Source: Gammaproteobacteria bacterium RIFCSPLOWO2_02_FULL_57_10
GTDB taxonomy: Bacteria > Pseudomonadota > Gammaproteobacteria > Pseudomonadales > Pseudohongiellaceae
Length of the DNA stretch: 36,897 nt
Assembly: GCA_001802565.1 (NCBI GenBank)
Contig: MGYS01000009.1
Span: 80,202 to 117,098, forward strand
Direction of reading: 5' to 3'
Each line of letters opens with the position of its first letter. Positions within the stretch are counted from its first letter, which is position 1. Positions 15,614 to 16,717 of this stretch are shown here, piece by piece. A model generated the notes under the pieces. It was not told the DNA's origin. It did not search any database and saw only the letters and a list, made by a program, of their open reading frames with translations. Position numbers and translations under genes: made by a program.

Positions 15614-16717
15614 TCAGAGCTGGTCCCAGGTAGCCCAGTCGATAGCCCTTCCTGGATAGGCCACATTCGAAAATGGCCAGCTTTGCTCTATCCACATCTG
15701 TGTCCATTCGTAAAGTATCGCATCAAATCCTGCATCAAAATCGGCCTGCGTGACCCACATTGTAACCTCGGCGTCATATCCCGGTTTGCTGCTTGGCTTG
15801 ACGTAGACGCTGCCCATTTCTCGCTCGCCATCCTGTGTGAGTACACCGTAGGCGAAAGATTCACGGCGTTCGAAACGGCCTTGCTCATTCAACATGTCCT
15901 GCATAGCCTCTTCAGCAGTGATGCCTTCATGGGGCCAACTCCCAGTACGGGAAAAAGTCTTTTGTAGATGATCAATCGATGACATGTAAGCTGCGTAGTC
16001 GATATCCACTAGTTCCGGACCAAGGGGTACCAGCTTGAAACCCCAGCCCCCGACAAGTACCGAAGGCTCGAACGCTTCCGGAATAAACGCGTCATCAGCA
16101 GCCGCTTGTTCCTTCATGGTATCCAGGAACTGTTTGTACTGTCTGTAACCGTCAGTCATGGCCCGAGAACAGTCAAGGGGTGTATCACGCACACCATCGG
16201 TACGCTTGCACGGCCCCTCCATCACCTCAGGCATATTTTCCTGAACCCACACTCTGGCATCGCGGTAAATGGGTTGATCATTGGAGCTGGTATCGACATT
16301 AACAAGAACGCCATCTTCAAATGTCAGATGAAAGGTATCCGTAACATCGAACCCTGTCTCAAGAGCCTGCACCAGATCATCCTGCACGGTGATGGGACAG
16401 GCTATCGTGCCTCCTTCTTCAAGAGCACAAGGCGTACGAACCAGTACCTTGTAATTGAGCCCTTCAGCCGAGGACTGGTAGGCGAGGATACCCGCAGCGG
16501 AATCACCCGCCTCTCTGAGAAATGATTGCAACCTGGTCGCATCAAACGAATAGAACGCATCGATCATTCCTTCCGCCTTTTCAAGGTTTGCGGCCAGTTC
16601 TGTTTTTTCAGGTTCTGTTGCCATCTCCGTGGTCACCTCCGCATCATTGGAACAAGCGGCCAGACCAAACAAACATAATGTAGAAACTGCAGCTCGTTTC
16701 TTTAATGACCTGTACAT
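15614..16717 (-). CDS. Lipoprotein with NTF2/SnoaL-like N-terminal half and GNAT-like C-terminal half
   Basis: 367 aa; lipobox LFGLAAC|S; MIDAFYSFDATRL... N-half; RESFAYGVLTQDGEREMGSVYVKPSSKPGYDAEVTMWV...QSWPFSNVAYPGRAIDWATW resembles small GNAT-family proteins. Fold calls are recall-based. Confidence 0.6.
   Translation of the reverse strand: MYRSLKKRAAVSTLCLFGLAACSNDAEVTTEMATEPEKTELAANLEKAEGMIDAFYSFDATRLQSFLREAGDSAAGILAYQSSAEGLNYKVLVRTPCALEEGGTIACPITVQDDLVQALETGFDVTDTFHLTFEDGVLVNVDTSSNDQPIYRDARVWVQENMPEVMEGPCKRTDGVRDTPLDCSRAMTDGYRQYKQFLDTMKEQAAADDAFIPEAFEPSVLVGGWGFKLVPLGPELVDIDYAAYMSSIDHLQKTFSRTGSWPHEGITAEEAMQDMLNEQGRFERRESFAYGVLTQDGEREMGSVYVKPSSKPGYDAEVTMWVTQADFDAGFDAILYEWTQMWIEQSWPFSNVAYPGRAIDWATWDQL

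Follow-up and report, generated by a model that had tools for sequence, protein, structure and literature searches.

A predicted exported lipoprotein joining an NTF2-like domain to a GNAT fold without the CoA loop is linked to a guanidine carboxylase island in Pseudohongiellaceae

Introduction

What could a domain with an acetyltransferase fold do outside the cytoplasm? This question is raised by a gene of 367 codons in the stretch of 36,897 nucleotides from Gammaproteobacteria bacterium RIFCSPLOWO2_02_FULL_57_10 (Pseudohongiellaceae) analysed here as a whole and called the window. The original prediction, made from the sequence letters, described its product as an exported lipoprotein in which an NTF2-like domain (N-half) precedes a GNAT-like domain (C-half). 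It supposed that the latter, lacking acetyl-CoA outside the cytoplasm, may be repurposed.

The neighbourhood of the gene touches a broader question of the field, namely where guanidine in the environment comes from and which substrates guanidine operons serve. To our knowledge, few guanidine-releasing enzymes are known. The features of the window are collected in Table 1.

Table 1. Position of the fusion gene, its parts and its neighbours in the window
Feature	Position	Strand	Basis
Guanidine-I riboswitch, 85.3 bits	4795..4939	+	
ABC importer: substrate-binding protein TIGR03427, permease, ATPase	5001..7714	+	
UAAP1 and UAAP2, carboxyguanidine hydrolase subunits CgdA/B	7757..9152	+	
Guanidine-II riboswitch, 32.0 bits (exactly Rfam's gathering score)	9179..9226	+	
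Guanidine (urea) carboxylase, TIGR02712	9245..12844	+	
Allophanate hydrolase	12813..14651	+	
Exported metallo-beta-lactamase-fold protein, convergent with fusion gene	14674..15603	+	
Fusion gene, 367-aa lipoprotein, NTF2-like domain then GNAT-fold domain	15614..16717	-	ORF and AlphaFold model
C-half (aa 211-367), truncated GNAT fold, no R/QxxGxG/A	15617..16087	-	AlphaFold model, Foldseek, motif scan
N-half (aa 35-200), NTF2-like domain and linker helix; invariant Cys 97, 107, 170, 183	16118..16615	-	AlphaFold model, Foldseek, alignment
Lipobox LAAC, Cys22, Ser at +2	16652..16663	-	Sequence
Relic of a second C-half (aa 335-367), in-frame stop, abuts 3' end of FAH gene	18526..18624	+	
Membrane fatty-acid hydroxylase FAH (PF04116), His boxes HRIQH, HATHH, HHCHH; conserved neighbour of N-half/fusion	18636..19673	-	
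Stand-alone exported N-half paralogue, 203 aa, GC 65% (window 53%)	21548..22159	+	
C-half relic (aa 210-315), broken between two frames	22461..22693	-	
TonB-dependent receptor; homologues directly upstream of fusion gene in other genomes	23063..26248	+	

The fusion protein and its two domains

The reading frame lies where the original prediction had placed it and starts with ATG, about 10 nt downstream of GGAG, a ribosome-binding-like motif. Near relatives keep both the start and the lipobox (MYRSLKKRAA..LCL.GLAAC). A wrong start codon is rejected as an artefact, and with it the cytoplasmic start excluding the lipobox that had been named as refuting export. The protein has the n-region, hydrophobic stretch and Cys-containing lipobox of bacterial lipoproteins. 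Almost every fusion and several of the stand-alone relatives have a lipobox with a hydrophobic stretch, while the remainder have an ordinary signal-peptide-like start, all signals being called by a simple pattern and hydropathy and not by SignalP; in one close relative (L007) Tyr stands in place of the lipobox Cys. Tat export is less likely than Sec/lipoprotein export, since the signals do not keep twin arginines. The product is thus predicted, as had been claimed, to be an exported two-domain lipoprotein, here of marine bacteria and with domains that are usually intracellular; judged by Ser at +2 after the lipidated Cys, it would sit in the outer membrane and face the periplasm.

Sequence comparison of the fusion protein with Pfam, NCBIfam and PDB gave no significant match and no covering family. 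Purifying selection acts on both halves (dN/dS 0.29-0.37 for the N-half and 0.14-0.22 for the C-half), so the frame is not a chance open reading frame. AlphaFold2 modelled the whole protein with a mean pLDDT of 88.8 and pTM of 0.79 (alignment of 38 sequences), and the Foldseek matches of this model in PDB include the NTF2/SnoaL/ketosteroid-isomerase folds 4kvh, 3f40 and 4u13 (TMt 0.62-0.66), which on the model fit the N-half. In the predicted structure the N-half has the cone-shaped alpha+beta fold of NTF2-like proteins, which it has in common with SnoaL, ketosteroid isomerase and limonene epoxide hydrolase, but it has no Pfam match and adds four invariant Cys and a C-terminal helical extension. 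These Cys form two invariant pairs, which would fit an oxidising compartment, and many polar residues (Tyr, Arg, Asp) are invariant as well.

The C-half alone gave a pLDDT of 91.4 and pTM of 0.87 (alignment of 23 sequences), and its Foldseek matches in PDB are of the RimJ type (3igr, E 4.1e-5, TMq 0.62) and the RimL type (2fck, E 4.9e-5, TMq 0.63). AlphaFold2 and Foldseek therefore agree on both of the folds that had been proposed. The supposed kinship with small cytoplasmic GNAT-like proteins also holds, in that Streptomyces homologues are annotated as "N-acetyltransferase" and Pfam Acetyltransf_3 gives a sub-threshold match (E 9e-5), but the C-half has its closest relatives among exported proteins. 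The model has the core of the GNAT fold, in the order beta1, helices, beta2-beta4, alpha3, short beta5 and a short helix. It is the same as in the RimJ/RimL-like members of the superfamily up to beta4-alpha3, whereas beta6-beta7 of the complete beta5-alpha4-beta6-beta7 arm are missing from it.

The C-half also differs from the GNAT superfamily in its export and in the acetyl-CoA site, whose inspection had been recommended. The pyrophosphate-binding loop R/Q-x-x-G-x-G/A after beta4 is present in 0/28 distinct C-half sequences, while the control, 2fck, scored positive; at the place where 2fck has RQGYG, the C-half has DAGFD. Signal-less relatives from Streptomyces, Pseudoalteromonas and other bacteria belong to this loop-less set. 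The suspicion of a repurposed domain is thus upheld, but not the idea that export caused the loss, because the motif is already absent from cytosolic relatives.

At the same time, 16 to 23 positions of the C-half are invariant, many of them Trp and Tyr. Together with its dN/dS, this means that the domain is kept for some function, which, on sequence grounds, is unlikely to be ordinary acetyl transfer. One could suggest that the exported domain transfers acyl groups drawn not from cytosolic acetyl-CoA but from another donor, such as an acyl lipid; the GNAT fold, the 23 invariant positions of the C-half alignment and the stronger selection on this half than on the N-half agree with it. We consider this highly improbable, as none of the 28 relatives has the pyrophosphate loop, the canonical C-terminal strands are absent from the model, and the signal is not of the Tat type, which makes a preloaded cofactor unlikely.

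The two halves do not always occur in one protein. Across genomes we found each half on its own as well as the fusion, the latter mostly in the order N-C, and in L092, L093 and L095 in the order C-N. In L096-L098 and L102 the halves are separate proteins with signal-like starts flanking the FAH gene (N, FAH, C), and in L099 they lie separately side by side, directly after the allophanate hydrolase gene. Because they are fused in both orders, there is strong evidence that the two domains would act together. The pattern for the genome scan came from an alignment of fusions only, mixed alignments with stand-alone halves having given none usable. What looked like FAH-N fusions in L111 and L117 proved to be out-of-frame extensions of open reading frames over the FAH gene and were rejected.

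Other arrangements of the halves were seen as well. In L115:5938-7185(+), which equals L059:1423-2670(+), a single open frame, which begins within the last part of the FAH gene, joins the N-half to a class I methyltransferase-like domain; the N-half is here seen with a second enzyme domain of the cofactor type. A Novosphingobium plasmid encodes an exported C-half alone (L034:5929-6537(+)), annotated as "twin-arginine translocation pathway signal protein"; the annotation around it shows neither guanidine genes nor FAH.

Linkage to the guanidine carboxylase island

The window contains a complete guanidine carboxylase operon, and the fusion gene stands at its edge, facing the operon and converging on its end. 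A riboswitch scan of the window found no guanidine riboswitch directly 5' of the fusion gene; guanidine-I riboswitches occur also in L075, L077, L078, L080 and L085. Across genomes the fusion is linked to gca, cgdAB, the allophanate hydrolase gene and guanidine riboswitches, as would be the case for an accessory of guanidine carboxylase.

In the host family the fusion was found in 19/137 genomes (one copy being incomplete at a contig end and one having stops), UAAP1 in 18/137 and both in 16 (Fisher 4.8e-16, ignoring kinship). The guanidine pathway is therefore present in 16/19 fusion genomes versus 2/118 others, loci from one family being non-independent data points. UAAP1 occurs in 1/20 family genomes that have an N-half or C-half only as a stand-alone protein. 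Guanidine genes are present at 24 of the 31 loci with a C-half, and many of the remaining loci are short contigs; L095, a draft genome of 2.6 Mb, has a C-N fusion but no UAAP1.

The DNA identity between genomes is 87-94% for the fusion and 88-95% for the carboxylase and allophanate hydrolase genes, far above the 71-77% of gyrB, so the fusion and the guanidine island moved together as a unit, also between genera. Another family is represented by Aestuariibacter (L075), with one fusion accompanied by FAH and a guanidine-I riboswitch. In the tree, C-halves of the guanidine loci form one clade (support 100/99), which includes the protein of the Novosphingobium plasmid. Other exported and cytosolic C-halves fall outside it, on long branches whose deeper order is unsure. 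The domain is rare, since of 369 genomes sampled from the class, the window's own and only 4 others have a C-half at E <= 1e-10.

Decayed C-halves lie next to FAH in genomes that also have an intact fusion, both in the window and in L047:5458-5640(-), which suggests that they are older resident copies replaced by the transferred fusion. The fusion is a conserved, co-transferred member of the guanidine-carboxylase island and of a linked set that contains FAH and often a TonB receptor. The statement that no function was described for this architecture can be narrowed down, as the gene belongs to this island and is tied to FAH, a context absent from the original prediction. We consider a functional link of the fusion protein to guanidine use very probable.

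The FAH hydroxylase and the TonB receptor

FAH is the most constant neighbour: it lies <=600 bp from the N-half in 27/38 N-only loci, in 26 of them on the same strand, and in many Pseudohongiella-type genomes it converges with the fusion. The N-half and FAH also occur in genomes without UAAP1 (e.g., L107, L109, L111-L115 and L117-L119). Since the pair is found without the guanidine pathway, it has a use beyond guanidine, and is older or wider in use than the latter.

This wider conserved pair could belong to an envelope-lipid module, in which FAH hydroxylates a membrane lipid that the NTF2-like domain carries or modifies, while the guanidine genes are co-inherited without direct biochemical coupling. 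The NTF2-like fold is used also by lipid carriers such as MlaC, and the FAH of the window has the three His boxes of the FA_hydroxylase superfamily and resembles the ornithine-lipid hydroxylase OlsE, though below the cut-off for the latter (92.6 bits versus 475). However, this explanation does not account for the close C-half joining almost only where guanidine genes are present, for the several gene orders, or for the co-transfer, and we regard it as rather unlikely.

The other partner is a TonB receptor: in 13 loci it lies <=1.5 kb away in the same orientation, in most of them immediately upstream (gap 59-1000 bp). Such a position, the residue of outer-membrane type at +2 and the absence of a recognisable catalytic motif in the fusion protein agree with a non-catalytic partner of the receptor, binding a guanidino compound in the manner of SusD/BtuG. 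This seems improbable, as the linkage to FAH is stronger and wider than that to the TonB receptor, and the many invariant polar residues of the N-half suggest chemistry.

Proposed role in guanidine assimilation

Our favoured reading, which we consider about as likely as not, is that the fusion protein is a CoA-independent extracytoplasmic accessory that helps to supply guanidine from an outside compound. Tentatively, this can be taken further: a TonB receptor, a membrane hydroxylase of the di-iron type and an exported CoA-free GNAT-fold/NTF2-like enzyme may strip guanidine from external guanidino compounds, and would then represent the first extracytoplasmic arm of guanidine assimilation. An external guanidino compound would enter via the TonB receptor, FAH would hydroxylate one of its alkyl carbons, and the NTF2-like domain would speed up the breakdown of the hydroxylated compound, much as MgdL follows MgdH when methylguanidine is demethylated. 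The aromatic-rich GNAT-like domain would hold the cationic substrate without acetyl transfer, the ABC transporter would import free guanidine, and the carboxylase pathway would break it down. The implied division of labour, with chemistry in the N-half and binding in the C-half, is a similarly speculative part.

The di-iron site of FAH-superfamily enzymes is commonly assumed to lie on the cytoplasmic face of the membrane. Since both domains of the fusion are exported, a hand-over across the membrane would be needed, and this topology is the main difficulty of the proposed mechanism.

The V. boliviensis operon has a guanidine-I riboswitch upstream, a guanidine-II riboswitch before gca, and oxygenase and lyase genes (PMC12508155). 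The operon of the window follows the same plan. The V. boliviensis operon is likewise extended by an oxygenase gene and one for an uncharacterised small protein, and serves growth on an alkylguanidine (PMC12508155). MgdH is a 2-oxoglutarate dioxygenase and the respective genes lie inside the operon, whereas in the window a membrane hydroxylase of the di-iron type and exported domains are found at the operon's edge. The linked oxygenase is a PF04116 FA_hydroxylase and not a 2-OG/Fe(II) dioxygenase of the MgdH type; by analogy, MgdH/MgdL may serve as a model for the mode of action but not as the family of the fusion protein.

In the literature available to us we found nothing relevant on exported GNATs, nor on guanidine together with a fatty acid hydroxylase or sterol desaturase. 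As a mobile conserved set that supplements the carboxylase pathway with a receptor of the outer membrane, a membrane hydroxylase and exported domains, these genes represent specific candidates for the question of guanidine sources. In addition, the C-half clearly exemplifies a GNAT fold that is maintained outside the cytoplasm and lacks a CoA site, which is useful for annotation, its relatives being labelled "N-acetyltransferase".

Several further genes surround the fusion. Between it and FAH lies a gene for a short NirB-like protein (16794-18305(-); 503 aa, FAD/NAD and BFD-like 2Fe-2S), which L072 and L073 have as well. A HupE/UreJ-like gene with two metallo-beta-lactamase-fold genes after it (26330-29475) recurs by the fusion loci L073, L075, L081, L084, L086, L093 and L095. 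Along with the third metallo-beta-lactamase-fold gene at the end of the operon, these may belong to the same pathway as the fusion. Finally, a 56-bp direct repeat (96%) is located at 21261-21316 and 29497-29552, between a pilin-like gene and an intergenic region. Beside its second copy lies an 84-bp palindrome (29621-29704); both are possible traces of a mobile element.
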